A stretch of DNA of 64,000 bases from Amphiura filiformis. Taxonomy: Eukaryota > Echinodermata > Ophiuroidea > Amphilepidida > Amphiuridae. Location: positions 9,260,815-9,324,814 of the forward strand of contig NC_092637.1 in assembly GCF_039555335.1 (NCBI RefSeq), read 5' to 3'. This document shows, piece after piece, positions 5,786 through 60,473 of the stretch; positions within the stretch are counted from its first letter, which is position 1, and every line of letters starts with the position of its first letter. The notes beneath the pieces were generated by a model. The model was not told the origin of the DNA and ran no database searches. It saw only the letters and a list, made by a program, of their open reading frames with translations. A program made the translations under genes and the position numbers.

Positions 5786-6350
5786 GTAAAATGGGGTAAC
5801 TTTGGGCACTTTTCAGAGTTTTTAAACCACTGCTTCCAAACAAAACCAATTATATTTCTAATTAACTCTTTTTTGTGACATTAGGGTTCCCTTCTACACC
5901 TTGAAGTTGAAAAAGATTTTTTAATAATTTTGTAAGGGTGCCCTAGGGGTTCAAAATGACCTGACCAAAGTTACCCCGCCTTTGGGGCAACTTTGGTCAC
6001 AGTATTACATTCCATGAAGAAAAAAAAATCAAAAAAATTGATCTTCGCTGAATATGGGCAAGTTGTTGTTTTTTGTGACATTTGACACCTTGCAAAATTA
6101 ATCAAACACACATCCTTGCTCACAAATATCGATTTTTATTTTTTCTGAAAAAAATGTAAAAAAATGCTGATTTTTGGTCAAAAATCCCGCTTTTTCGTAA
6201 ATTTCAAGGAAATTACACATGAGCGACTATTATTTCTTCCAAACATATTTCTTAACAAATTGACACCAAATATGACTAAAAACAATATTGCTGTACGAAA
6301 ATATGACCATTTAAAAAAATATATTTGACCGACCAAAGTTACCCCGCTGA
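5786..6350. repeat. Repeat with GGGGTAACTTTGG ends, in both orientations
   Basis: TAAAATGGGGTAACTTTGGG at 5786 faces GACCAAAGTTACCCCGC at 5964 and again at about 6330, with GGGGCAACTTTGGTCAC at 5984 between them. The arrangement looks like one or two foldback elements, and the rightmost copy abuts the GMC oxidoreductase exon at 6352. Confidence 0.55.
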
Positions 6351-6351
6351 C

Positions 6352-6424
6352 CGAAGTGTTTCCAGACGGTACAACTGGCATAATGGAGGAATCAACCACT
6401 CGAAGACACTCGATTCCTCGGACA
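6352..6424 (-). CDS. GMC oxidoreductase, penultimate or late exon (C-terminal catalytic part)
   Basis: After a strong acceptor (TTTGTTTTCAATTTCTAG) the exon reads VRGIECLRVVDSSIMPVVPS then GNTS. This is the C-terminal signature of glucose-methanol-choline oxidoreductases (RVVDaSIMP...sGNTnAPT), which are FAD enzymes such as choline dehydrogenase. Its first base completes the codon left open by the exon at 59444-59614 (CG|T, Arg), giving VVDPKL-R-VRG exactly as in the family. I place the 3' end at the GT of TCG|GTCAGC (6352); a GT seven bases further is the alternative. The next exon, normally encoding APTIMIAEKA, was not found down to position 1. Adjacent GGGGTAACTTTGG repeat sequence may confuse the boundary. 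Confidence 0.85.
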
Positions 6425-6892
6425 CTAGAAATTGAAAACAAACCAACACAGCCAATCAGTTTTTAATGAAATGTTTCCAGCGGGGTTTCCAGATTTCGAT
6501 TTCATACACAAACCCTTTAAGTATGCTATTAAAGGTATTACTATATTCCGTTATTGATGGGGCAATAATTATATAGGGTCCTTCTTGATGGACTAGATTA
6601 AAATTGGAGCGCAAGATATTGGGTAATCGAGTCCGAGCCCATTTCACAAAGACGTGCAACATTTATTTGTTCATACGTAGGCCTACAATCCTATCAATGC
6701 GCGGATTTGGAAGTCAACTTGTGCCAAAATTCCTTCCTACAATGCAATATACATCCTGCATAACAAAGGAAATGGATTAAACTTCGAAATGTGGAGATGA
6801 ATTCCGGTAGAAAAAAATATGCGTATACAAACGTAAGTTGTAATGTGGTACCTATAAGTGGATTCAAAATCGCTCCAATTTGTTACGTTAAG

Positions 6893-12946: not shown

Positions 12947-14529
12947 TCAATTGTCATAAGCAATCTTAAACAGATGAGTTTTTAAAGTCTTTTTGAAAAT
13001 ATCAAGTGAATCACATATACGCAGATTTAAAGGAAGCAAGTTCCAAAGAGCAGGTGCACAAGCATAGAAGGCCCGGTCGCCAAATGATGAAGAAGTCCGT
13101 GGAACTGAAAGAAGACATTTATCCGATGATCTAAGGTTTCGTGATGGAATATAAAAATTGATAAGTTCACTGATATAAGAAGGTGCCATGTCATGGAGCG
13201 CTTTCCAGGTGAGAAGAAGGAGTTTGAAATGAATGCGATATCGAATTGGTAACCAATGCAGACGTTGTAAGACGGGTGAAATATGGTCAAATTTCCTAGT
13301 CCTTGTGAGCATGCGTGCAGCAGCATTTTGAGCCTGTTGAAGTTTATTGAGTTGTCGTTCAGTGATTCCATATAATAAAGCATTTCCATTGTCAAGACGT
13401 GATGTGACCAAAGCGTGGACAAGTGTTGCAGCAGTATCATAATCGAGCACTTTGCGAATTTCATTAATGTTTCTAATCTGAAAATACGTTGATTTGCACA
13501 CATTTTTGATGTGGTCAGCGTCCATTGAGAGAATGTTGTCAAATATAATTCCTAGATTGCGAGTATTAGAAGAAGCTTGAATGTTGGCAGAATCAATTTG
13601 AAGAGAGTTGGAGCGAAGTTTTGATTGATTATATTTGGAGGTGATAATAAGAAGTTCAGTTTTGTCATCATTTAATTTCAATTTATTTACAGTCATCCAT
13701 GATTTAATGTCCTTGATACATAATTCAATTTGCGAACGTGAAGAAAGTTCATCTGATGCACTATCTAAATCAAAAGATAAATAAAGCTGTGTATCGTCGG
13801 CGCGCATACATGTGAACTTGTAATCCATGATTGCGGGCGATGTTCGCTATTGGAGACGAGTAAATGGTGAAGAATTGAGGTCCTAATACAGATCCTTGGG
13901 GGCACCGAAAAGGAGTGGAATGAATGATGACAAACAACCATTGATGTTGACAGCCTGCAATCTGTCGGTCAAATAAGAACGGGTCCATTCAAGTGCACTA
14001 CCTCTAATACCAAAAGAGGAGAGACGCGACAGAAGGACACCATGGTCTATGGTGTCGAAGGCAGCAGATAGATCAAGTAATACCAAAAATACACCACGTT
14101 TTTTATCCAAATTACATAATATGTCATTTTGAACACGAAGTAATGCTGTTTCAGTTCCATGATGTTTTCTATACGCTGATTGGAAGCGCTCATATAGGTT
14201 GTTCACAGTAAGATGATCAGCTATACGAGATGAAACAACTTTTTCAATTATTTTTGAGATGAAAGCCAAGTTTGATACCGGCCGGTAATTTTTCAAGATT
14301 TCAGAGTCAAGCGATGGCTTTTTAAGAAGAGGTGTGACGAGGGCAGTTTTGAAACAAGATGGAAAAACTGCTGACTCAATGAAAGATTAACAATGCGTGT
14401 AATAAGCGGAGCAAGCAGCTGAAGATGATTCTTTAAAAGCCACGTAGGAATAGGGTCAGAGTCACATGATTTTGGTGGTGCAGCACTGATGATTTTACAA
14501 ATTTCCTCTTCCGGCGAGGCGGAAAACAT
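12947..14529 (-). pseudogene. Reverse transcriptase of the CR1/L2-like element, frameshifted
   Basis: Motifs in order: [74 protein letters not shown] (motif A), [36 protein letters not shown] (motif B region), then the YADD box. At the YADD box itself the frame slips near 13800, so one frame reads MYARRRY and the next RADDTQLYLSF; the segment appears to carry extra bases inside the catalytic box. Downstream are LKLNDDKTELL, LVTSRLDNGNALLYG, HWLPIRYRIHFKLLLLTWKA and a stop at 12947-12949. This enzyme would copy element RNA into DNA at a nicked target; here it cannot be translated intact. Breaks also lie near 14290 and 13885-13985. Confidence 0.92.
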
Positions 14530-14664
14530 CTAAATGAGATTTTAAATCATGTTCAATGTCCGAAGTAGTGGATGTGTTTTGCTTGTCAATAGCAGTAAGT
14601 TCAGAGTCCAAATCATCACGTATTTTAGTAATTTTTGAAGTGAAGAAACTATTAAATTTTTGTG

Positions 14665-15618
14665 CTAGTTGTTCCTTAGAGTTGTGAGAAGGAAGTTTTG
14701 CTTTTCCTTTTGGTGCAGCAGACTTTCAACAATCTTAAAAAGTTCCTTCTGGTCAGAACAATTTGAAATTTTGTCTCTATAGTATGCTGCCTTTGCATCA
14801 TAAATCATGTTATAAACATGTTGGCGTTGAGTTTTAAAAAGCTGATGATCCACTTCCAATTTGGTTTTCCTCCACTTACGCTCAAGTCTTTTCCTCAATT
14901 TCTTCGCTTCATCAATCTCAGGGGAGTACCAGGGATGGGAAGGGCGAATTGTAATGGTACGGGATTTCAAAGGTACATGCTTATCCAAAATGTTACAGAG
15001 AGACGAGTTATATTTATGTACAATTTCATTTAGATCTGCTGATGAATCAGTGCTTGCAAAAGATTTCTCAATATCCAAAGCAAATTGTTCATGGTCAAGT
15101 TCTTTATATTTTCGATAAGAAATGTGCTGTTTCAAAAGTGGAGGTTTCTTGAGGTTCAGCTTACAAAGAATCGAAACATGATCAGTCATAAAACAGTCGA
15201 CATTAACAGAATTAATTAAATTATCAGAGGCGCGGCCAATTACTAAATCCAAAATATGTCCTTTGATATGAGTCGGAGAATTAACATATTGATCAAAGTT
15301 ACAAATATCCAATAGTTCTTTCAGCCGTGCAGTATCATTATCATTTGGGTCTTCAAAATGAAAGTTAAAGTCACCAACAATTAAAAGTTTAGTTCTTGAG
15401 GTAGATGACAGGGTACTAAGGAAATCAGAAAATTCCTGAAGAAAAACTTTGGCTGTGACGCGATGCTTCTTGCTGTAAGTTGGTCTGTATATGACAACCA
15501 ATTTCAGAGAAGAACATGTACCAGGAAAAGTCAAATCACAACATAAACTTTCAAAAGAGAGATATTTGAGTTGGGAGCCGGTACTTCTGGTTATTGTTTG
15601 TTTATAGCAAAATAGCAA
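14665..15618 (-). pseudogene. AP-endonuclease domain of the retrotransposon, N-terminus missing
   Basis: The frame reads LVVIYRPTY, LLIVGDFNFHFEDPNDNDT (catalytic Asp/Asn box), THIKGHILDLVI and MTDHVSILCKL (the final Asp-His of the exonuclease-endonuclease-phosphatase fold), then a linker rich in Lys/Arg and Trp (HPWYSPEIDEAKKLRKRLER) leading to the RT. The first conserved blocks (N-, E- and Y-containing motifs) are absent, showing 5' truncation. The domain nicks target DNA to prime reverse transcription. Confidence 0.88.
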
Positions 15619-16687
15619 TGGAAAAATAATAATATATATGTAAATCTTTCCCTTTCCGTTGCAATATAACTTTCAGATTTCGATGATTATCTAGGCCAAT
15701 TTAGATGTTTAATATGCCAAAAACATCCCATTTTAGCTCTCAAAATTTCAAAAGAGAATGTAACCTTAAAAAGGCCCTTTCAGTGATTAAAAAAATAAAA
15801 ATTGCTTATCAATTGCCTCAAATTGAAGGATAAGTCATTAAAATTGTCATTAGGTATTTTTGAAATGAAAAAAGTTTGAAAAAAATGAGGAAAACAGCAG
15901 TATTGTCAAAGTTGAGGCCCCATTAGAATACATGGAGCTAATATAATACATGTACAGTCAGTATATCAATTACAGGTTTCACGTAAATGTTGTCTTACAT
16001 GTAATGTGGTACTACTAGTACTTATACACCGGTCCTTGATAATATTTGTGACTATTTGTGCATTTTTTTTTACAATTTTTTTTTTGAGGATTTGTAGAGT
16101 CTCTGGATCTACATGTATACTAGGAATTTTAATTGAATGAACACAGCTGTACCGGGTATTTGATCCAACCACAATCAAGGCATTAGCCAGAGGGGTGTCC
16201 AGGTGTCATTTGGACACCCTGTTAATGCATTGACCACAATCGCTTATCGCGATTTCAAACTTCATGCGAAGGCACAACCTTGGATTGATGCAATACATTG
16301 TATAATACTTGACCAATCACAAGTGCGTTGGCATATGGTTACGAGTTATTCAAGCACAGTCGCATGACGCACATCCTCGCGTACATGGCAAAAATTTGGC
16401 ACGCTATCATCGCTATTCCACTATAGAACCAAGTGCTACAATAATTTGTGGAACACATGGGAAAAATTACAATTTTGTAGTAAAAGGGACTCACAACTGG
16501 CATTGACATGACACTGACTTACTACGTATGGATTTTTATTTCAGATTTTTAGGAATTTTGCTGTGGAATCGAATCGAGAGAGAATTCAGAGAAGTTTGTA
16601 AACAAAGATACAATTTAGGTGAGTTATTTCTTTGAATATTTTTGCACTGAATGTTGACCCCATAACAGGGGTCGATTTCAGTTACAT
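15619..16687. other. No gene recognised; short hairpin
   Basis: No domain was seen. A compact inverted repeat, GGGTGTCCA..TTTGGACACCC, lies at about 16192-16220. Confidence 0.4.
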
Positions 16688-40755: not shown

Positions 40756-43584
40756 ATCCATGGATAGACATAAGGCTGGGTTGGAAAGGTTGTGTAGGCT
40801 TTGTGGGGTAACAATCAGGGATAATTGTTATGACATATGTGGGAAGGATTTGAAATCCAATGTTCCATTTTCCCGATCTTATTTTGAATGTTTATTCTGT
40901 TGATGTTTCTTTTCGATTCCACAGACATACACCCTTCTAGGTTTTGCAAGGGCTGTATGTGCACAATAATACACCATTCAAAATTGCCTCCAATGAAGGT
41001 AGGAATGTTACTGTGCTCAATAAGCCACAGGTTTGGGTCCCATATACCGATGAAGGGTGTTATGTCTGTGGAAGGTTTCGGAGGGGTTTGCAAGAGGGGT
41101 TAATAAAGTACATACAACGAGAAAGAGGGAAGGAGGCATGTTCAGAAATCACCAGGTTCATCGTCTACAACAGCATCAGCAGCATCATCTTCATCACATT
41201 CAACATCGTCTTCTGTTCATTTATCACCTAGAAAAGTATTCGCTGCAGCAAGAGCTACTTCACCTAAATCAAATGAAATTGCACCTCATGTCATTTTGCA
41301 AGAAATTAATGGTATTGTACATAGGGTTTCTACATGTAGTTCATCTCAATCTGTAGGGAGTAAATTTCCAAAAGCCTTGGCTGTTACCCTTGGAGTTGCA
41401 GAGTGTGTATTATTATGTAGCATGTGTGGTGGATTGTTGGATAATCCTATTGAAATGTTACCATGTCACCATACCTTTTGTAAATCATGTGTATATGAAT
41501 ATGTAAATAATGTAGGTTCAAGTTGTTATGTATGTTCTATGAATATTTCATCTGTTGTACTTCCTTCTCAGCATGTTTTGATGATGTTAGACAACCTGCA
41601 GGTGCACTGTCTCTACCAGGAGAGGGATGTGGCCACCTATTTGATCTACGTGATTTATGGTCACACATCTCCATATGTCCGTTCTCCATTGATCACGAAC
41701 ATGAAGGAGAAGGCATGGCACACTCCTTCCTCCTCGTGAGAGGTAGACCTCCAGGAAGTTTAATTGACGCTCAACAGGCTGCGCAGAATGCCAGATTGCG
41801 CACAATCAAACAAAGAATCAATGACTTGCAGGCCAAGGAGATCCACGAGAGTAATGTTAGCATATGTGTAGCACTTGCTATTAACAGTTTACTGAGCTGT
41901 AGGCCAGCGAAGCAAGGCAGATCTTATTGATCAGATATTTAAAGATAAGTATGGTACTTTGTCACCAATACAATGTGTGGCATATAGAGTTAATAATATG
42001 ATGTCATGGCATGCATACAGAGCTTCAGCCAAAGTAGTGAATCAAGCTTTTGGAAATGTGCAGGTATTCAGGTCTGAGAGGGTCATGCGTCTGGTTGAGG
42101 CCAGGCTTCTTCCAGGCTCTGCTGTGTTTTCATTTAGTCCCCCCCTTCACAGAGTTTCTACTGATGTTAGTGGGGGTGACAGTATTGATATATTGTCTGG
42201 GCTACCCGACACTCCCCTAATGGAACCTCATTGTCGAGGTAGACGTTGGAGACTGGACAAGGCATTGGCTTGTGCCCTTCAGGATTCAGAGGTTGATCTG
42301 TTTGCGGCTCTTGATATGAAAGGTCTGGACAAAACATCACCAGGTCCTTTCATGGTTGACATCAAATGGGGAGATGATGGCATGGGCGATGTGAAGCTGA
42401 AGAAGGGCACAGAAGCCAATGTTCCTGATAAAGTCATTCGATGTTCATTTGTCGTCCATGCAATCTCTGCCGAGGTTGAAGGGGAAGATGTTGTGGTATG
42501 GGAAGATGCTGGGAGTGGTTCATCCCTCAATTGCCGACCACTTCTCATTGCCAGAGGTGATGAGGGCAGCTTCCCATCCTCCAGCACCCTCCTTCAACCC
42601 ATTTTGGCAGAGATGTCAGACATTGTGGCGTCAAAGATGACATTAGAGACTTCATTTGGTCATCGGATTTTTTCTTTTAATTTTACTGGTTGTATGTTTG
42701 ACGAGAAGAGGGTTCGCCATATACAGGGTCTGGCTGGATCTGGAAGTAGATTTTTATGTACGTTGTGCGATGCCACACGGGATGTTGCAACATCGGATCC
42801 ATTTGATGAAGTTGTTACCAGAAGCTATGATAGTCATCTCTCCCGTTACCTGAACGTAAGACAAACCCAGACAATTTGTCAACAAAAGATCTGGGCGAGG
42901 TTGTGAAAGGTCAATGTGGAAAACCCTATGATGAGGCACATTTGAGCCCTACAATGGATGCACTGCATTGTCTTATTAATGTAGGTTCGAGGGTCATCAA
43001 GACTTTGTATGTATATGAATTTGCAAGGGTCTTCACCACCAAGCTTTCAGCTAAGCTGATGAAACCACACAAGACAAACTTTGATTCTGTCATCAGGAGA
43101 ACCTCCAAATATTCACCCCCTCATGCCAAATGGTAACTACGTAAGACGGCTGACGGAGCAAAAGACAGTTGACTTTATTTTAGGCCGAGTTGATAATTCT
43201 CGCCTGGAGAGTATCCGGACATTCATCTCGACCTATAATGAAATGAAGGCTGTCTACTGTTCTAACCAGCCCCTTGCTACTTGTCCAGAGCTTTGTGCCC
43301 GATATTCACAAAACGCACAGGTTTTGACGGCGCTGATTGATACTCATTTCACATATCTGAAACCCTTCAGCAACTACTTTCATAAGATGATTGCTCATGT
43401 ACCTGAATTACTCGACAGGGACAAGTCAGTTGGTAAGTTTAGTAGTTCTTCTAATGAACGGGCCAACAAAGACTCGAGGCGGTTCACACTGCGAAATTCC
43501 AGACAGACATCCCAATTTGAGATGCAGGATACACTTCGGATCCATTGGCTTTACACCAGCAGGCGGCTTCAGTCTGCTGTGTAA
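40756..43584 (+). pseudogene. RAG1L: RAG1-like recombinase (RAG1L), catalytic triad intact, about seven frameshifts
   Basis: The order follows vertebrate RAG1. N-terminal zinc region: LERLCRLCG, DIHPSRFCKGCMC, CYVCGRFRRGLQ. RING C3HC4: CSMCGGL, CHHTFCKSC, CYVC (41415-41535). Nonamer-binding-like segment: RGRPPGSLIDAQQAAQNARL. Then ADLIDQIFKDKYGTLSPIQC, VMRLVEARLLPG and the core. Catalytic acids by alignment with D600, D708 and E962: DDGMGD (codon 42376), LCDATR (42769), SNERANKD (43456). Other core landmarks: SPTMDALHC, LMPNGNYVRRL, NYFHKMIAHVPEL and HWLYTS; stop at 43582-43584. Frame changes fall near 40885, 40980, 41130, 41620, 41905, 42855 and 43100, with no nonsense codon in the correct frames. 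RAG1 cuts next to heptamer signals by nicking and hairpinning. ATG at 40760; an acceptor at 40755 allows an earlier exon. Identification is very secure; whether it is functional is not. Confidence 0.96.
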
Positions 43585-43716
43585 TATTTTTGTTTTAAAA
43601 AGGATGACTCCGGCAATCACAACATTATACCTTATATGTTAGAAAAATAATTATCAAGCACAAATCACTTATGGTTTTATTTAAAACAAACTCATATTGG
43701 CCATAAAAACACCTGG

Positions 43717-43878
43717 CTCTCAACACACGATATTCAAAATTCCTGTGCCGAAATTGTCTAGCGCAATGACGTCAGGGTTACTTGTGCTAAATTGTTGCCA
43801 GCCTTCATTGTATTACTGGGGCGTCATTGCACTAGACAATTTTGGCGCCCGGGAATTGTGAATATCACGTGTTGAGAG
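43717..43878. mobile_element. 162-bp foldback MITE downstream of RAG1L
   Basis: CTCTCAACACACGATATTCA then GAAATTGTCTAGCGCAATGA mirrors TCATTGCACTAGACAATTTT then GAATATCACGTGTTGAGAG. It lies 130 bp past the RAG1L stop. Confidence 0.85.
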
Positions 43879-43917
43879 ACGCCTATTAATTTGTTTGTAT
43901 GGTCAATATCAGTTTAG

Positions 43918-45027
43918 GGAGTGTTCATTAATACTTTGGTGGGGGGGGGGCTGATCTTCCTCAAATTTTTTGCTCAAACTTTTGGACCCCCCTCGATGGA
44001 CTGCTTAACTTTTTGATCCCCTCTTTTGACAGATAAAACTTCCCCCCCATTATCGTATAACAAACATTATACTCAATAGTGTTGTTTGCAGTGGTGTGGT
44101 ATCTGGGTCACATGTCATTGAGGGAGGAAAATGTTTAAAACATTCGGTGGGACAATTGTGCATGAAATACAAGCACAAGGAAATTTTCGTTGATACTTAA
44201 TTTAGATTGGTCCCAAATCAGGGTGTTTATCTGATTTTACAGGGATACGGTAAGTGAAATAGAGGATTTATTTGGAGGTTCATAGGCACAGCAGCATAAT
44301 TTGGATCTGTGGCTATTATGATTGTACTAATGTGTGCGAACCGCTCAAAAAATTGCCCATATTGAAGCTTGAATATTGAAGCTTCAAATATTGTTAAAAT
44401 TGGAACAAATTTATGCAAAAAGCTAAAAATAGTAAAATGGCCAAATATGAGATATATATATGTTCACGCAAATATACACAGGGAGTCAGTTTTGGCCCTG
44501 AAGACCGTGGCACTGGGCCTGTGCACACTCGGCCCTATGGTATCTACCCATGGGCCTATGTGTACAAAATAATTTAGCAATGAGAAATAGTAAACTGAAG
44601 TGTGCATGCAGTTTACGTGCAAAGAAATCAATTTATTTGCAATATTTTCTAGATTTAGTTGTATTTTGATCAGATTGGTACATAATCATGTTTGTAGCCT
44701 ACTTTGTAGAGATATAAAATTCTATGATAAAAGTGTCATTATTTCTTAGAGGAACCGCTGTTGCATGTTGCTGAACATCTTTAATGTTATATTAATTAAT
44801 AGATATGTGTACACTAAGTGCCATCATTTTTCAAACAAAAGCACTGAAAACCAAAACATGTCCATGTTAAAATTGATATAGAGGGTCTCAATGCGCGTGA
44901 AGCGTGCAAAAATTGTGTGTTTTCCTACCACCTAAAACTTTTTTGTTCCCCCTCTTTTAAGGTCAAAAACTTTTTTGGCTCCCTCCCTTTTTACCACCCC
45001 CACCAAAGTATTTCCGAACACCCCCTT
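43918..45027. mobile_element. 1.1-kb foldback with ACTTTGGTGGGGG arms
   Basis: GGGAGTGTTCATTAATACTT then TGGTGGGGG pairs with CCCCCACCAAAGTATTTCCG then AACACCCCC. Just outside, CAAATCACTTATGGTTTTAT (43661) pairs with ATAAAACCATATGTCATTTG (45034), so a larger inverted structure spans about 43.66-45.06 kb. Confidence 0.7.
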
Positions 45028-46756
45028 ATTTCAAATAAAACCATATGTCATTTGTGGTTGATAATTAATTTTCTATCATATAAGTAGGGATGTCCACTGT
45101 CAATACATTTCCTGCTATAATGGTTTCCTACTGGGTGTGTGTGTGCACTCGCCCATGTATTGTCTATGCAAACACACCCCCTTGCACTAAGTCCAAGCCC
45201 TGATAAATGGCAACAGTACTTGTGGTCCAATTTATAGCCCTAAAACGGAGTGTTTCAAGAAATTCCTTATTCCACCAGAAAACATTAACCAAACTCTTTC
45301 CTGATTGGTCATTAAATAGAGAGGACCTTCGTTTATCAAGGGATCAACTTTTTTTAAAGAAAAAATTCATGAGATGAGAACCTGTGTATCAGGTGTTGAA
45401 ACACAATTATCTCTGAATTTGGATTGATTCAGACAAGCTAACTTACATACTCATAAAATGTAACTATTTTTGAAGACAAAATGTGCAGGATGTTAAGAAA
45501 TTAAAGAATAAGCCTACCAAAACCCATCTCCAATTATGCACTTCTGACTACTATGTCCATTTCATATGCTATATCCATCATGGCTTCCATGCAGTGTATT
45601 GCTCAATGTAGTAAAGATAACCTTTGAGTTGGAGCAAAATTCTCAAAATTTGTAGTAATTAATGTTACCTAACTTATGCGATGATGAAATATAATCATTT
45701 TTGAAGATAAAATGTGCTGACCTTAAAAGATTGAACAATGTTTAAGACTACCGCTATTCATTTGAAATAATGCACTTATTGTTCATCTCCTCTATGGAGA
45801 TATTTTCCATGGCAGCCATCTAAAGATCATGCTTGAGGTTCCACCAAACAAACCATGGGTTTTGAGGTCTTATATTTTTGTTGTATGTCAACAAAATCGC
45901 TTAAATTTTCATGATGATCTTATTTCATGTTGTTATAAGCAAATGTAATGTTCCAGAAAATGCTATTTAACAAATACATTAAAAACAATACCTTAAAATT
46001 GCACTTTTTAACAAGTTCTAGCAGCCCTATAATAAAACTGGAATGAAATGTCCGATTAGGATTATTTAAACGCCAAAATGTTTCTTTCACCAATTTCCAG
46101 CCAATAAGTTCTGAATAAATTTAAAAGTACTTCAATTTTGAGTGGACATGCCTAATATAAGGCATGATGTTGTGATTGCCGGAGACATCCTTTAAGATGA
46201 GTATCCATATGGAGGAGTGAGCTGATTCTGATATCTATAAACAGCTTTATGGTGATCTTGATGGAATGGTGCATTATTACTGATGATCTGGAATCATATT
46301 CTGCTTTGTCCAATGAATCGTACCTCAATCTTAATCCTGTAGTTAGCACTAACTCGCAATAAAAGTAAAATTGCACTATTTGGCCAAATTTTTGACATGG
46401 GCCACTGGCCAAAAACATGAATTTTTAGGCTGTTTTCACATGCTGTGACAATCAAACCTAAAGACTCATACAAAGTGTAATCGATTTGTGGATTGTAAAT
46501 TTTAAAAGTAGAACAAAGTCTAATATCTATTTGTGGATTTTAAACATTTTATTTTCTTTTATAACCATTCATTAAAGTTATTCTAAGAAGTTAAAATTAG
46601 ATGAAAATCTTGCCAAATGCCTAGTGTCAAATATGACTAATGTAAGAAAACATACAAAAATGCATGGTTTGGCCTTAGGTTTACAAAAATGTTTGTTTAG
46701 CGTAACATTAAAAGAAATTAGGGGATTATATATTTTTTTTTTTTTTTTTTGGACAC

Positions 46757-48059: not shown

Positions 48060-49480
48060 TTCTTGGATAGTACCAACAAGGTTTCTCTCCTGTGTGAATA
48101 GTTTCATGCTCGTGCATAGACACAATAATATTTCATGACAACACATACAATCATGTACCTATATTTTTGAGGTTTGTCTCTTGTGTGAATCATTACATGG
48201 TCCTGATTGACAGAATCATATTTCATAACAACACATACAATCATGTACCTACATGTATATTTTGAGGTTTCTCTCCTATGTGAATCATTACATGGTCCTG
48301 ATTGACAGAATCATATTTCATAACAACACCTACAATCATGTACCTACATGTATATTTTTGAGGTTTGTCTCCTGTGTGAATCATTACATGGTCCTGATTG
48401 ACAGAATCATATTTCATGACAACACATACAATCATGTACCTATATTTTTGAGGTTTCTCTCCTATGTGAATCATTACATGGTCCTGATTGACAGAATCAT
48501 ATTTTATGACAACACATACAATCATGTACCTACATTTATGAGGTTTCTCTTTTGTGTGTGAATCCTTTCATGGTCTTGATTAGCGGAAAGATATTTTATG
48601 ACAATCTACATTTTTGAGGTTTCTCTTTTGTGTGTGAATCCTTTCATGGTCCTGATTGGCGGAATGATATTTTATGACAATCTACATTTTTGAGGTTTCT
48701 CTTTTGTGTGTGAATCCTTTCATGGTCCTGATTGATGGAATGACATTTTATGACAATCTACATTTATGAGGTTTCTCTCCTGTGTGTGAATCCTTTCATG
48801 GTCCTGATTGGTGGAATGATATTTTATGACAATCTACATTTATGAAGTTTCTCTTTTGTGTGTGAATCCTTTCATGGTCCTGATTGGTGGAATGATATTT
48901 TATGACAATCTACATTTATGAGGTTTCTCTTTTGTGTGTGAATCCTTTCATGGTCCTGATTGGTGGAATGACATTTTATGACAATCTACATTTATGAGGT
49001 TTCTCTTTTGTGTGTGAATCCTTTCATGGTCCTGATTGGTGGAATGACATTTTATGACAATCTACATTTTTGAGGTTTCTCTTTTGTGTGTGAATCCTTT
49101 CATGGTCCTGATTGGTGGAATGACATTTTATGACAATCTACATTTATGAGGTTTCTCTCCTGTGTGTGAATCCTTTCATGGTCCTGATTGGTGGAATGAT
49201 ATTTTATGACAATCTACATTTATGAAGTTTCTCTTTTGTGTGTGAATCCTTTCATGGTCCTGATTGGCGGAATGATATTTTATGACAATCTACATTTATG
49301 AGGTTTCTCTTTTGTGTGTGAGTCCTTTCATGGTCCTGATTGACGGAATGACATTTTATGACAATCTACATTTATGAGGTTTCTCTTTTATGTGTGAATC
49401 CTTTCATGGTCCTGATTAGCGGAATGACATTTTATGACAATCTACATTTATGAGGTTTTTCTCCTGTGTGTGAATCCTTT
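48060..49480 (-). repeat. C2H2 zinc-finger-derived minisatellite (12 units of 76 bp plus longer units)
   Basis: On the minus strand each unit carries the C2H2 linker pattern HTGEKPHKC, then CHKMSFHQSG-like finger residues. From 48541 to about 49457 the period is exactly 76 bp (starts at 48541, 48617, 48693, 48769 and so on). Upstream units are 90-96 bp (48170, 48265, 48361, 48451). A real finger repeat is 84 bp; 76 is not a multiple of three, so the frame shifts every unit and no multi-finger protein can be read. Isolated relics of the same gene appear at 49855-49900 and 50378-50440. It is best read as an old zinc-finger gene fragment amplified as satellite. Confidence 0.85.
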
Positions 49481-50274
49481 CATGGTCTTGATATTCACCT
49501 GACTGACTGATTTTTTTACAATAACGACATTAGCATATGTGAGGTATCCCTCCTGTATGATCCATTTTGTACAAGATTTCAACAACATGTCACTTTGTGA
49601 TTTTTTAAAAATATCATGAACTCTCTGACCTGAAGAACTGCTCTTGAAACTGTTATCTGGTTTTGTGTCTATGCTTTTTATTATCTATGTATACACTACT
49701 TAGGCTGAAGTATTATATGAAAAGTAAGCATGCATTGTACAGTAAATATTGTACAGTAAATAAATTTTTTGTATAAATTAAATATGAAAGCCACCACACA
49801 TGCTATAGTACATGTATAGTATAAATGTTATAATCAAGGCTCTTCATTCACAACCTGAGGTTTCTCTCCTGTGTGAATCTGTTCATGTTCCTGATTGATG
49901 GAATGATTTGTAACCAGGGAGGGAGCACTTGTATTTCATGGTGGACACCATGCTCATGAACAAAAAAGTAAAAAGGGTAGTTTTTCAGCATTGGGCAAGT
50001 ACACCGCTGTACCTGTTTAGGGTGTCAAAAATCCCAAAAATCAGAAGAAAGGGTATACTTTTCCTAGCATGATACTTGCTTAGGGTACCAAAGTTTAATG
50101 GCAAAATAAAAAAGGGTAAAGAAGGCTGTGCAGAACACATCGTAGGGTAAACCATTAAGAAACATCAAACTACTAATATTAAACAAGAACCTGTACATGA
50201 ATTTTTACTTTCTTAGTGTTAAAAAAATGGCAAAATACTTGTTTAGGGTATGTTTTGCACACACTGAGTACGCT

Positions 50275-50699: not shown

Positions 50700-51465
50700 G
50701 AATTTGTAATCTAAGGTCATCCAGAAACTGGAAAGCACACATTGCTAGATTTGTAATACAAGTTGATCCAGAAACCGGAAAGCACACATTGCTAGATTTG
50801 TAATACAAGTTGATCCAGAAACTGGAAAGCACACATTGCTAGATTTGTAATACAAGTTGATCCAGAAACTGGAAACAGAGCTGCCAACTCTCCCTCTTTT
50901 AGCAGGAGACTCCCTACTTTTAAACCTTCAGAACCCTTGGTCATCTCCCTGAAAAGGAAATGGTTTCGTCCATTAAGATGTACACAATTTGACAAATCTC
51001 CCTGATTGCAACAGGAAATCTCCCTTTTTTCAAGATTCCAATGTTGGCAGCTCCGCTGGAAAGCACACATTGCTAGATTTGTAATACAAGTTGATCCAGA
51101 AACTGGAAAGCGCACATTGCTAGATTTGTAATACAAGTTGATCCAGAAACTGGAAAGCGCACATTGCTAGATTTGTAATACAAGTTGGTTCAGAAACTGG
51201 AAAGCACACATTGCTAGATTTGTAATACAAGTTGATCCAGAAACTGGAAAGCACACATTGCTAGATTTGTAATACAAGTTGATCCAGAAACTGGAAAGCA
51301 CACATTGCTAGATTTGTAATACAAGTTGATTCAGAAACTGGAAAGCGCACATTGCTAGATTTGTAATACAAGTTGATTCAGAAACTGGAAAGCACACATT
51401 GCTAGATTTGTAATACAGGTTGATTCAGAAACTGGAAAGCACATATTGCTAGGTTTGGTACAAGT
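50700..51465. repeat. 47-bp minisatellite, interrupted by a MITE
   Basis: The unit is GTTGATCCAGAAACTGGAAA then GCACACATTGCTAGATTTGT then AATACAA. At least a dozen near-identical copies have a period of exactly 47 bp (for example 50762, 50809). 47 is not a multiple of three, so the minus-strand frame reading MCAFQFLDQL repeats is incidental. Confidence 0.92.
50876..51055. mobile_element. 180-bp hAT-like MITE inside the minisatellite
   Basis: It starts CAGAGCTGCCAACTCTCCC and ends AATGTTGGCAGCTCCG. The flanking unit sequence is duplicated (ACTGGAAA left, GCTGGAAA right), an 8-bp duplication with one mismatch, as expected for hAT. Confidence 0.8.
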
Positions 51466-52510: not shown

Positions 52511-53548
52511 TTACCACTGAAAGCCATGGCGGGGCCATTCTAAATCATCTGCACGGCACGACTTGCAGTGGTAGATAGCCTTCTCAAGTTGCTCATTTGA
52601 CTTATTATGAAAAGGATCTTGCGGTGATTTTCACACACTAAATGTTTAAATTCCAAACATAAATCACACTCTATACTTAACTCTAGATCATACAAAGAAT
52701 CATCTACATTTAAGCTTCCTAGGTTCAACATGAAGAATACATGGATTACAACAGAAAATTTCCCTCTGCTCCCTGACTGGCCCGTCCTCTTCATCTGCAT
52801 TTCCAACTCCCCCAACTGCACCTAGCTGTTCCTCTTCTTCTTCCTCTTCTTCCTCCTCCTCTTCTTCCTCCTCTTCTTCCACCTCCTCTTCCTCAACATC
52901 TTCCCCTCCTTGAATAATTTCTTCACCTCCCTCATCATGTCTTTCACTAAATATCTTTACAATTTTTTCACACCCCACCTTCCTAACCACAACAATACCC
53001 ACCCGCTCTGTGTTCCCCAAAAGCAAATTCCCCAATAAAGCTTGAATGTATTTCTTTTGAACTTAAAGTACATAAAACCAGATCAAAAATATACAATTTG
53101 CTGTTTGGTTTTTGATTGTGGATACCACCAAAGAAAATGAGAGAATTGGGCAAAATATTGGACAAACAAACGCCTCCATACATACAAAATGAATCACTTC
53201 GTAACTGAAGTTTTTGGGTGCCCAAATGAAATGAATAAATAGTGTTGAACTGAATAACTGCAGTACCCTCAAACTTTATACCACCAAAAAGATAAAGGGT
53301 ATCCAAGTCAGCGAAATAAAAGCAATGATGAAAAACACGGGGTTCAATACCAAAATCATACGGTGATAGTGTCCATGATGAAGAGTCGATGTTGAAAATA
53401 TAATTATCAGAACATAATGTAGTCTTCCAGAAGAACTCAGTAGAATGAAAATGATGCGTTGCTCCACCAAACAAAAATAAGTTGTTGCCACTCAGTAGCG
53501 TAAATGAAGAACCAAAAGCGAGGTGATGGATGAACAGAACCGTGGAGA

Positions 53549-55616
53549 CTGTGATGTGGATGTAAATAAAATTGTATAATGTAAATCATATATAATGATG
53601 GTATGGCAAATGATACATGTATGAGAAACAAATAGAGAAAAAGAGATAGATGTATTTGTAAATGTCACTAGGGCTTATTTTGATAAATGAATTTGTGCCC
53701 GTACACTACTGAATGAGCATAAGTCAGCAAATTGTATTCTGAGTTACAGTGTAAAATGGTGTGAAGGTCGTATTCACAAGTACCTCAATTTGGTGCGACG
53801 AGTATCTCAACCAATCAATAATCCTATTGCTGAAGAGGATAATAAGCTTCTATCTATTTCTATAGAATATTTCAATAATTTAGTCTTTGTGTACTTTGGC
53901 TAAATCCTGTTCAAGTGGTGGGTAACAAAGGATTGTATTTTGTCGAAGTATGTATAACCAACAATTAACAATGAGAGGACATTCCTGAACCTTGTTGACT
54001 TGGGGATGATTTGAAATGACCGCCAGTTATGACTGTTTGATATCTATGACCAGAAATGTGGAAAAAGAGACCAAAAAAAAAGACCAAAAAAAGGTACCAT
54101 TTTGTTGAAGCAGCAGAGTTCAACAAAACATAACCCAGCTTCTGGATATCTTTTTAAATCAAATGATATACCATTTTAAAGCTTATGATATATATTTTCT
54201 AAACATGACAACAAAATTGACCGGGCTGACATTACGGATGATTTGTGGTGTACAGGCACATTTATAAAATTGAGTGCAAGGTGACATTTACAATTTTTCA
54301 AATCACAGCATGCCAAATTACATGTATGGTGCTGGACCACCAATATTGTTTGTAGATAATAATGTACATTGGATTTCATTGTTGCTATTCATTGCAGCTC
54401 GGTGTCATTACTGCATTGGGTATTTGTATAGTTTCATTGTAGTAGCTAGTAGCTGAATATGTTTACACTAAAATGTTGATGTGTGCAATGCACACATAAT
54501 TGCTATGGCCAGAGCAATTGTTGTAACCAATTATATGTATATAAAATATAGATTCATCTCATCTCCGCTATCAGGGACTGTTTTTGACATTTACAGTAGA
54601 ACATAAAATAGCTCTTCTGGAGCTTTCAATGAGAACTGTTTAGAGCATTTACAATAGAATGTAAGGAGAGAATGGACAACTTTGGAGAGCTAAAATCACT
54701 CTCCTATATCAGATTTTAAAAGCAGTCCCTGCACTATGTTTTCATGTCATGAATGGACCTCAATACTGTGAAGTGTGTACTGTGCCGAGGATTTTTCATT
54801 ATGCAACCGACATGCTTTGAATCAAAGTGTGCATTTTTGGCACTCTGTGTCTACTGCATTGTTATGCATGTTTAGTACTACATGAGCAACATTCAAGTTT
54901 CAGACTTTCTTTTGAACTATCTTTTGATTTAATGCTGCCAGTGCAGTTGGGACTCCATGAAAAAATGGAATGAAAACATTTGGTTGATTTGTCAGAGCAT
55001 AATTTAGACAGGAAATTTTTGGTTTAATCTCTTTACAAACTTTACAAAGTACACAATGCACCATTATTATAAAATTGGTGTACTGGGATTGCACTGGTTG
55101 TTGGAAATTCTACGGTTAATTTTTACACAGGTTACAAATGATACAATACAGTGTACAATCTGCCAGGCATATTCAAATAGCTAACAATTCACAGTACTTG
55201 TAACACTGGTGATTGCATGATGACTGAACAAATTGAAAATCTTCTCAGTTGTACAAAATGTACATAAACAACAACATGATTATAATTTAGTCAAGAGTAA
55301 TGTCTGATGTGCATATGATGAGGAAATAAATGTGTACTTTGTCTGAAAACCTAGCGACTCAAACCATCAAGTGTCGTTTGTTTATTAAGTATAACGATGT
55401 CTCATTTTTCTTTAAGTGCAATGACATTAAATGTACCATGTATGGGTACATTCAAGCCGATAAGATTGCAATTGACAAGAAAGTAGCTCCATCTCAAACT
55501 GAAAATTTGTCACTTTGTGTTACTTTTCCACACCTAGGTGAGAATGACATATTGCTGCATGCTGCAATTGCATTTTATTTTATTGACAAATTTTAGTTAC
55601 ATTATTCTTTTATACC
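53549..55616 (-). other. Probable intron of the RAG2-like gene
   Basis: It lies between the donor at 55616 and the acceptor ATCCACATCACAG at 53549. The upstream exon ends in phase 0, whereas the FGSSF frame needs one base from before, so a small exon or an indel near the acceptor must be assumed. The interior holds a dispersed repeat at 54.6 kb and unclassified AT-rich DNA. Confidence 0.5.
54590..54733. repeat. Inverted copy of the 20.8-kb repeat
   Basis: AACTGTTTAGAGCATTTACA, TAGAATGTAAGGAGAGAATG and ATCACTCTCCTATATCAGAT correspond to the reverse complement of 20770-20885. Confidence 0.7.
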
Positions 55617-55740
55617 TTAATGAACTGAAATAAGAGTTGCTTTCTTGACTCGCAAACAAAAGTGAAATCAGCACTTGGTTTTCCTGTTGGTAGTTTCCCC
55701 CCAAACATGTATGCCCTGGTCCCTGTTGCATCTGTTTCAA

Positions 55741-56938
55741 CTGTTCAAAAAGAAAACAAACATAATATGATAAATAAAAACATGTAGGATGGATGGGTAC
55801 TCACTGTTGTAGGACCAAGGGTTGGAGTATTTACATGCCATTCTCTCCTGAAGCATGCATCTCATTCTAGTCCTATCCGCTGTCCTACATATTCCTCCAT
55901 TAGTATATCTTGCTGGGGTGGGACTGGAATCACTGGATCGGGCTTGTCTCTACATCTATCTTCATAGAATAAATAAAGGAATCTTGCCATGCTGTAGCGT
56001 GGTAGTCATATCCTCGAAAATTGGATCCTATACTGCCAAGTTCTTAACGATGTTTTTTCTCATGAACCAGTGATTAACTGCACTGAATGTGGTATATTAT
56101 GATCAGTTGATCACCCACAACCAATGACCAGTTCACCAATGGCACTGAAAATTGAAAAGGAACTCTTGTCTGGTACATGACACTTGCTTCAAGTTCTTGA
56201 TTTTGTAGAAATCCTACAAACAAATCAAACTAAGAAATATCTTCAACAACATGACTATACAGGGTGAGTAAAAACAAGTGCAATAGAGAAAAGAATCCAT
56301 TTTTATTTAAAAACCGAATTGAATCTTTTAGGTTTAAAAACACTGTATACATTACATATCCATTAGAGATCATGTGTGAAAAAATCAAGGAATTAGCATA
56401 TTTACTGTTTTGTTTTTATGACACATTTAATAGCGATACCCAATTTTAATGTTTGTCCAAGAGACATCTAAAATTTGAATGTCAGCCCACTCTGTGTAAG
56501 GTAGATTTGGAACAACTGCCATTTTCGTAACCTCATTTGCATAGAATAAAATGAAGCACCCCAATTGTTATAGTCCTTGGTCTTATTTAAGGAGAAGAAA
56601 CATTATTTGATGTTATTTTCATTTCCGATGTTGATTCTCTATCAAAAAAATATAAATTTGTAGGTTTTTGCCATTTGTTGCCACTGGCAATGGGAAAAAT
56701 CAAACCCTGATTAAAACATTAAATAATGACCCAACCACAAGAAAAGTATAGGCCTACATTTTCTGAAAGGAAATTGCATGAGGAATCTGAATATTGAAAA
56801 TTCTAATTCTAAAAATTGTTGGCGATAAATATAAACCATTTAAAGCCAAAAGCTGCCAAAAATCATTTTCAAATAAACTTATTTTTGGAGCACCCTGTAT
56901 AATCACATGTTTACTAATGTACAATTTATTTGAGTAGC
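55741..56938. other. 5' flank of the RAG2-like gene; possible further exon
   Basis: At about 55807-55850 (minus strand) a frame ending CKYSNPWSYN stops at a GTGAGT donor whose phase matches the 55740 exon (A|TT, Ile). It may be the preceding exon, but the match is only one chance in three. TATACAGGGTG (56258) and CACCCTGTATA (56892) form a possible foldback pair. Confidence 0.35.
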
Positions 56939-57346: not shown

Positions 57347-57697
57347 AAGGGGGTACTACACCCATGTGGTAAATTTGTGACTATTTTTGCATTTTTCTCA
57401 AAAAATAATTACACACTGGTAACAAAAGTTGTGTATATTATTGGGGCAAGGAATCCAATTACTACACTGAAATTTCAGTGACTCAAGACAAGCGGTTCAG
57501 TTTATATGATAGAAAACGAGGTACACCCTAGCGGTACCTTATTTCTGATCATAAATGTCTTGGGTCACTGAAATTCCAGTGTAGTAATTGGATTCCTTGC
57601 CCCTATAATATACATAACTTTTGTTACCACTGTGTTATTAGTTTTGAGAAAAATGCAAAAATAGACACAAATTTATCGAGGTGTAGTACCCCTTAAA
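57347..57697. mobile_element. MITE family 2, copy 3
   Basis: TTAAGGGGGTACTACACCCA mirrors GGTGTAGTACCCCTTAA. Internal GGGGCAAGGAATCCAATTAC / TAATTGGATTCCTTGCCCC. TTAA lies at both ends. Confidence 0.88.
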
Positions 57698-59432: not shown

Positions 59433-59443
59433 AGGAGCCTTAC

Positions 59444-59614
59444 CGTAATTTCGGATCGACGACAGCAGATGGATCGTCCCAACAAGCCCCCATCTTGCAA
59501 GTTCCGACAGGATGGAAACCCGTGTAGGCGAAATGGCGCACGCATTCCGTTAAATTATCCTCAGACCATGGATCATGAAGGCTGTTTGGTAAATTCCATT
59601 CACGAACTTGGCAT
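59444..59614 (-). CDS. GMC oxidoreductase (choline-dehydrogenase-like), internal exon
   Basis: A clean acceptor (GGTTCAATTTCTCAG) precedes 171 bp reading CQVREWNLPNSLHDPWSEDN, LTECVRHFAYTGFHPVGTCK, MGACWDDPSAVVDPKL, then CG|GTAAGG. HPVGTCKMG with the following DP.AVVDP is the hallmark of the GMC C-terminal substrate-binding and catalytic domain; the His of HPVGTC is the conserved active-site histidine region of choline dehydrogenase and relatives. These FAD enzymes oxidise alcohols; the substrate cannot be told from one exon. The exon uses phase 2 at both ends and joins the 6352-6424 exon perfectly. Upstream exons are not in 59.6-64 kb, so they must lie beyond the window, across the P5CR first exon on the other strand. 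Confidence 0.9.
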
Positions 59615-60473
59615 CTGAGAAATTGAACCATGAAATCTTGAATGTAATTACCATGATTACGTATCTTTGAAAATTCGTGATGGAAACACACGAAGATCTT
59701 TGCCTTAAATTCAGCATTTTCAATACTTTGTTTTACTCTTTATTTTACCAATTGATTATATATTATTCCCAACATCCTCACGAGTAGTTTGGGTCTTTCA
59801 CAAAGGATTTGGGGACCTGCGATATGGTCATTTGCCCAAAATTAAAGATTATAAAAAGACTTGCTCATAGGCCTCTACGATTTAAATGCGTCGCTCTCAA
59901 TCATTTGCTTGGCAAGGGCTTGGCAAGTCTGATACCCTGTTTCAATTAAAAGATAATTGGTACTTTTGACTACAAAGTATGTCGTTTTGTATCCAAGTCA
60001 AGCTGGTACATTTTAAAATGAACAAATTCCTATATCCATGAGTGACCGCAATCTGGCCACTCAGGCTAAAGTCGGAAACTTTGAAAAGAGAGTTAGTACC
60101 GTTACTAACTTGCTCAGTACCTATTTATACGCGTCACCTCCAAAGTTGGAGTGCCCCCCGGACATAAACAAACCTTTTATAGTTTCACCGGCCCCAGTCA
60201 ATTTCAATGTTTGTTTTTTTATTTTTCCCGCGGTAGATACACACAGCTCATGGGCCAATTATAGACTTCTTCCAGTCGTCTATACCCGGGTGCATAGTCA
60301 TGTACTTTAAACCTGCGGCAAAGACTACTGTAATATCCTACGAGCTTTTCCTACGATCTGTCCACAGTCGACCACGTTTGCGTTTGACAATAACCTTGGA
60401 TCAAACGTGAAAGTAGCGACTAGCGACACACATTATTGCTCTTTAGATCAGTCTTTTTATTTATTTAATAATA
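59615..60473. promoter_or_regulatory. Presumed promoter and 5' region of the P5CR gene
   Basis: This 860-bp stretch precedes the P5CR start codon, with moderately GC-rich patches. No GMC exon was found here on the minus strand. TATTTATACGCG near 60120 is only a weak TATA-like match, so the promoter role rests on position. Confidence 0.3.

Follow-up and report, generated by a model that had tools for sequence, protein, structure and literature searches.

The window analysed here, a stretch of 64,000 nucleotides from contig NC_092637.1 of Amphiura filiformis, holds two genes that face each other tail to tail: a RAG1L gene on the plus strand and, on the minus strand, a succession of kelch, acidic hinge and PHD-type zinc finger pieces that we label RAG2L. 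The features that carry the analysis are listed below, where D600, D708 and E962 are what we take to be the residue numbers of the catalytic sites, and where both the numbering of position 848 and its Arg in wild-type mouse RAG1 are likewise assumed.

40760..43584, plus strand: RAG1L gene, recognised by the Pfam RAG1 family and by RAG1 in the PDB; no intron is required; convergent (tail-to-tail) to RAG2L, 8.9 kb apart
41416..41535, plus strand: RING (zinc dimerisation domain) of RAG1L, zf-C3HC4 at 8.8e-08
42376..43458, plus strand: equivalents of the RAG1 catalytic and zinc residues from PDB alignments, namely D600 (42376), D708 (42700), E962 (43456), ZnC2 (42757, 42766) and ZnH2 (43381, 43396)
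43123..43125, plus strand: Met aligned by HMMER to RAG1 residue 848, next to a gap of one residue; the aligned PDB chain also has Met
56706-52511 (about 52.5-56.7 kb), minus strand: RAG2L gene with kelch, hinge and PHD pieces, from a reading of the frames
56590..56706, minus strand: first-blade-like kelch exon of RAG2L, GLIFPIASGNKWQKPTNLYFFDRES..., from a three-frame reading; 3' border uncertain, in-frame TAA after it
55616..55740, minus strand: RAG2L exon A with blade MFGGKLPTGK (GG at 55702), an exon of its own with splice-like borders (ACAG acceptor, AAG/GTATAA donor); kelch profiles match over the joined read-through
52986..53548, minus strand: RAG2L exon B with blades FLFGGATH (53468), YLFGGIKF (53285) and FFGGIHNQ (53129), from Pfam and, with the read-through, a match to 6b40_M
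about 52766..52951, minus strand: acidic hinge of RAG2L, 33 of 62 residues D or E
52556..52753, minus strand: PHD-type finger, with CCNPC at 52753-52739, CDLC/H/C at 52668-52633 and CKSC at 52567-52556; eight ordered ligands over two frames

In its unedited frames, RAG1L is matched by the Pfam RAG1 family at 3.3e-53 and 1.1e-37, and by RAG1 in the PDB at 5.6e-52 and 1.3e-36. The RAG1-type N-terminal region, which sets RAG1 apart from Transib, is represented by the RING. The top three of the 65 PDB matches of this RING are RAG1 chains (33.9-33.6 bits), a generic RING comes next at 32.7 bits, and the RING of mouse RAG1 (1rmd) reaches just 22.4 bits, under many generic RINGs; the N-terminal zinc piece scores 18.8 bits with RAG1_imp_bd, short of the cut-off of 23.3. 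The path chosen through RAG1L takes about eight frame changes and meets no same-frame stop, its start (40860-41228) being the least certain part. No further RAGL copies were found in the window (10 pieces searched), a scan of viral and genome contigs with one RAG1L segment found no relatives, and Rfam and tRNA scans gave 0 matches.

All the kelch, hinge and PHD motifs named in a preliminary description of this DNA lie on the minus strand, with the zinc ligands in order. The interval given there, 52511..55740, is too short: the first-blade exon starts at 56706, outside it. The likeness of this exon to blade 1 of RAG2 was judged by eye only, against what we take to be the mouse sequence. Exon B, in an unedited frame, is matched by Kelch_4 above the Pfam cut-off (6e-08) and by PF24681 just under it (2.5e-12; 47 bits, cut-off 50). 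A six-blade propeller is expected, and the gene presents four clear GG blades together with first- and last-blade-like pieces recognised by eye; AlphaFold2, run without homologues on the 187 aa of the unedited exon B, gave a mean pLDDT of 32.9, from which we draw no fold reading. The Glu run of the hinge, made of 11 GAA and 10 GAG codons, coincides with a purine-rich tandem repeat at 52829-52903. The blades of exon B use one frame, the hinge, CCNPC and CKSC a second, and CDLC..H..C a third; at least three frame changes are needed in exon B. The preliminary description had kelch and PHD within one gene; the pieces lie in that order, spread over several frames and exons rather than held in one open frame. 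We infer that the kelch, hinge and PHD pieces together encode one RAG2L protein.

Frame breaks, element ends and surrounding repeats

Sequencing errors or decay may be behind the frame breaks. A dead, decaying copy, whose frame changes and in-frame TAA are real and which makes no protein, is compatible with either RAGL family discussed below and has a little less than an even chance. The frame changes in RAG1L and exon B speak for it, as do the TAA after the first-blade exon, the repeats immediately past RAG1L and the lack of a convincing TIR pair, whereas every break in RAG1L is a frame change and its catalytic and zinc residues are intact. Moreover, an unrelated LINE in the window breaks in the same style, with frame changes at three of its four joins, which favours assembly indel errors over decay. 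This LINE (12950-15672, minus strand), with frames broken like those of RAG1L, is matched by Exo_endo_phos_2 (endonuclease, 2.1e-07) and RVT_1 (reverse transcriptase, 9.5e-17). In RAG1L (40860-43133) and in the LINE (13886-15672), successive frame changes alternate between the same two frames, an alternation that a rough reckoning makes unusual for random indels.

Element ends were sought as TIRs with a CAC start and a 5-bp TSD. At a threshold of at least 11/16 with an exact TSD, the search returned one low-complexity AAAAA pair, and 3 of 30 shuffles gave one too; a looser search, with no shuffle control, returned six pairs, the best at 7/10. RSS-like sites at either side of the locus score 12 at best, and the whole window, on both strands, holds three sites at 13 and 26 at 12, so that the flanking sites do not stand out from the rest. 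Two candidate pairs of ends were rejected: the near-palindrome pair 34069/57581 lies in an inverted-repeat element around 57370-57675 (among the 25 longest of 117 pairs), and in the pair 35595/59054, with CAATT in common and CACTATG at an end, just 6 of 10 end bases match. With no convincing TIR/TSD, the locus may be a mobile element, a fossil or a host gene.

Several other repeats and gene pieces surround the pair. Nested repeats occupy 43599-46193, just past the RAG1L stop, where an arm at 43599-43689 pairs with 45026-45084 and 46155-46193; the right arm is split by about 1 kb, its ends being TAGGGATGTCCACT and AGTGGACATGCCTA. Between RAG1L and RAG2L lie tandem arrays of 90/76-bp units (48079-49492) and of 47-bp units (50702-51457), the former reading, on the minus strand, as HTGEKP zinc-finger-like peptides (zf-H2C2_2 28.6 bits, under the cut-off of 40). 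Two minus-strand pieces, at 6181-6462 and 59443-59739, match the C-terminal domain of a GMC oxidoreductase over profile positions 109-134 and 64-108 respectively; they may belong to two genes or be exons of a single one, which would then have the RAGL locus inside a 53-kb intron.

Placement among the RAGL families

The locus is most likely an invertebrate RAG1L-RAG2L pair, arranged tail to tail, of RAGL family A. This call is based on features and on three-way bit scores, with amphioxus as the sole RAGL-B compared. Passages of PMC7204232 (2020) distinguish four RAGL families, of which A, then known outside vertebrates from P. flava alone, is the nearest to vertebrate RAG, and describe invertebrate RAG1L cores as closer to one another than to vertebrate RAG1, with the exception of the P. 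flava family A member. Over a core segment, RAG1L shares 113 of 295 aligned residues (38%) with mouse RAG1, a level that speaks against a jawed vertebrate as its source. Segment 1 of RAG1L scores 180 bits with mouse RAG1, 171-170 bits with 3jbw and 6dbi, which we take to be zebrafish, and 85 bits with the RAG1L of 6b40, presumably amphioxus; as a control, mouse RAG1 and amphioxus RAG1L score 115 bits with each other over the same region. Segment 2 gives 129, 116 and 75 bits (mouse 129, amphioxus 75).

Sections of PMC7204232 attribute a Cx2Cx3GHx4C tail to essentially all invertebrate RAG1L. In the six frames of the window this motif (CxxCxxxGHxxxxC) is absent, and the looser CxxCxxxxHxxxxC occurs once, at 44905. 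The latter was set aside as a RAG1L tail, as it sits between the inverted-repeat arms 43599-43689 and 45026-45084/46155-46193. Repeats that start about 15 bp past the RAG1L stop may have removed the C-terminal zinc motif. Parts of the same paper describe echinoderm RAG1L without a RING, and amphioxus and mollusc RAG1L with one (PMC7204232). The RING at this locus counts against the known echinoderm RAG1L type; since amphioxus and mollusc RAG1L share it, it does not by itself speak for family A.

For RAG2L, we take an acidic hinge to be a criterion of family A. In 2023, Martin and colleagues reportedly described Ptychodera flava and several echinoderms as hosts of complete family A transposons whose RAG2L-A has an acidic hinge. 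These elements presumably share with our locus a vertebrate-like RAG1L and an acidic-hinge RAG2L; they differ from it in that no convincing TIR/TSD is found here. In the earlier account, so far as its passages cover the point, the acidic linker is missing from invertebrate RAG2L (PMC7204232, 2020). Two PHD patterns are printed in excerpts of that paper: Cx4-7Cx14-16Cx2-4Cx4Hx2Cx11-18Cx2C for invertebrate RAG2L, and CCx2Cx22Cx5-6Hx2Hx2Cx19Cx2H for vertebrate RAG2 (PMC7204232). The ligand order in our RAG2L is CCxxC, CxxC, xxxxH, xxC, CxxC: the CxxCx4Hx2C and the last CxxC are invertebrate-like, while the initial CCxxC and the long gap to the next ligand recall the vertebrate start. The last gap seems above the printed invertebrate range, although exact gaps vary with the placing of the frame changes. 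The acidic hinge, the vertebrate-leaning RAG1L score and the absent C-terminal zinc motif are more telling than the PHD, and point to family A.

The alternative of a RAGL family B locus, with a Glu-coding microsatellite that passes for a hinge by chance and a RAG1L that has lost its tail, is unlikely. It would account for the overlap of the hinge with a tandem repeat, the invertebrate type of the two PHD halves, the repeats so close beyond the RAG1L stop and also the RING, which is kept in amphioxus and mollusc family B RAG1L (from sections of PMC7204232). However, RAG1L scores half as well against amphioxus as against vertebrate RAG1, and the acidic residues extend past the repeat, with GAA and GAG alternating at third positions in the Glu run and two Val codons.

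The vertebrate RAG1-RAG2 pair has in common with this locus the convergent arrangement, the RING, the DDE residues, the kelch part, the acidic hinge, the C-terminal zinc finger of RAG2 and a RAG1 or RAG1L gene that needs no intron; the differences are the splice-like borders of RAG2L here, its CxxCxxxxHxxC and CxxC ligands, and a residue other than Arg at what we take to be position 848. The tail-to-tail layout is the one reported for RAGL loci in passages of PMC7204232 and PMC9885083. Sea urchin SpRAG1L-SpRAG2L (RAGL-B) shows the same convergent pair, with kelch and PHD, as far as sections of PMC7204232, PMC8355894 and PMC9885083 describe it; it differs in that echinoderm RAG1L lack the RING and invertebrate RAG2L the acidic linker (PMC7204232, in part) and in its multi-exonic genes (PMC8355894, in part). 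Amphioxus ProtoRAG (RAGL-B) shares the RAG1L DDE core, the RING and a kelch RAG2L (E 0.00019 with the read-through) but, in passages of PMC7204232, has a RAG2L without hinge and PHD and a RAG1L with a CCGHC tail; against RAG1L here, amphioxus RAG1L has half the bit score of vertebrate RAG1.

Identity of the kelch gene and its zinc finger

Taken by itself, the kelch sequence is a poor guide, as it does not tell RAG2 from generic kelch proteins. The expectation that this part would be closer to RAG2 than to generic kelch proteins was contradicted by the PDB search with the RAG2L read-through, in which generic repeat proteins lead at 28.7 and 28.1 bits and the RAG2L chain of amphioxus, 6b40_M, is third among 30 matches (24.0 bits, E 0.00019); with the unedited exon B, amphioxus RAG2L (6b40) is at merely E 0.21. 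The profile comparison with RAG2 gave no better result: Pfam searches at E up to 10 returned kelch families and no RAG2 family, the PDB matches at E up to 10 (13 with the unedited exon, 30 with the read-through) include no vertebrate RAG2 chain, and a two-row profile including amphioxus RAG2L has no vertebrate RAG2 among its 29 PDB matches at E up to 1. The long loop after FLFGG, which is ungapped against amphioxus RAG2L, was dropped as a RAG2 mark since generic chains cross it too, nearly gap-free in the second alignment of 5a10 and, when the two-row profile is used, in those of BSU1 and dynein chains.

Context therefore decides the identity of RAG2L, because a convergent RAG1L adjoins it. 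The RAG2-like reading of the preliminary description was upheld mainly through this neighbour, which went unmentioned there, and not through the kelch sequence. The RAG2L of invertebrates are known for their divergence, and with no vertebrate RAG2 profile or chain among the matches we use the label RAG2L rather than RAG2. Kelch and PHD within one gene are a mark of RAG2/RAG2L, according to parts of PMC7204232 and PMC9885083.

For the zinc finger, we used a strict pattern (CCxxC, 60-100 nt, CxxCxxxxHxxC, 45-80 nt, CxxC, frames free) whose spacing ranges were set post hoc. The window, both strands counted, has it once and none of 40 first-order Markov simulations of 128 kb has it, which counters the objection that the motifs arose by chance in unrelated frames, though their frames do differ; the central CxxCxxxxHxxC alone is found 0.35 times per simulated 128 kb, versus 1 observed. 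Pfam PHD scores 9.9 bits on the read-through (E 1, cut-off 24), and the PHD part, searched against the PDB, matched no PHD protein, only two unrelated chains at E 0.19 and 1.6. As the Pfam score is sub-threshold and no PHD chain is matched in the PDB, the PHD claim stands on ligand pattern, position and neighbour. A hand alignment to the mouse PHD, which is weak evidence, places R, S and F at what we take to be the cage residues Y415, M443 and W453. The aromatic cage looked for at the outset is thus reduced to one aromatic (F for W453), so that H3K4me3 reading is unsupported.

The reading that an ordinary kelch gene of the host lies next to a RAG1L unrelated to it, and has zinc-like motifs through chance, would fit the generic kelch profiles and chains that match or outscore RAG2L and the long blade loop seen in non-RAG2L chains, but it is very improbable in view of the simulations and of the kelch-hinge-PHD order in convergent position next to RAG1L.

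Proposed mechanism and evolutionary meaning

Vertebrates assemble antibody genes with RAG1 and RAG2. By analogy with the family, RAG1L would act as a DDE nuclease-transposase, nicking DNA at the ends of the element and forming hairpins there, with the RAG2L propeller as its cofactor; the acidic hinge would damp transposition, like the vertebrate RAG2 hinge, and the PHD would tether the complex to chromatin. Met rather than Arg at position 848, together with the hinge, would then put together a RAG1 feature that permits transposition and a RAG2 feature that restrains it. It is rather unlikely that this locus is an unreported family A pair that is undamaged in the living animal, is kept by the host as a gene and not as a mobile element, and combines a permissive RAG1L (Met 848) with a restraining hinge; should this be true, it would represent a living transposon-recombinase intermediate, in a lineage not known to have one. 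The locus is possibly among the family A loci already published, in which case it adds nothing new.

Hinge and PHD outside vertebrates were reportedly published in 2023. The view that the layout is older than vertebrates, and that amphioxus RAG2L lacks a PHD, agrees with print and is not new: in passages of PMC7204232, all invertebrate RAG2L except that of amphioxus have a PHD. Less trivial is the hinge, which the same paper describes as missing from invertebrate RAG2L.

The propeller, acidic hinge and PHD-type finger at this locus fit the published view of a pre-vertebrate origin. Among the invertebrate relatives known so far, family A RAGL stand closest to the antibody-gene recombinase, and to our knowledge they have been reported from few genomes. 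One more locus that has a RING, an acidic hinge and a PHD would help to order the steps that led from a transposase to the V(D)J recombinase.
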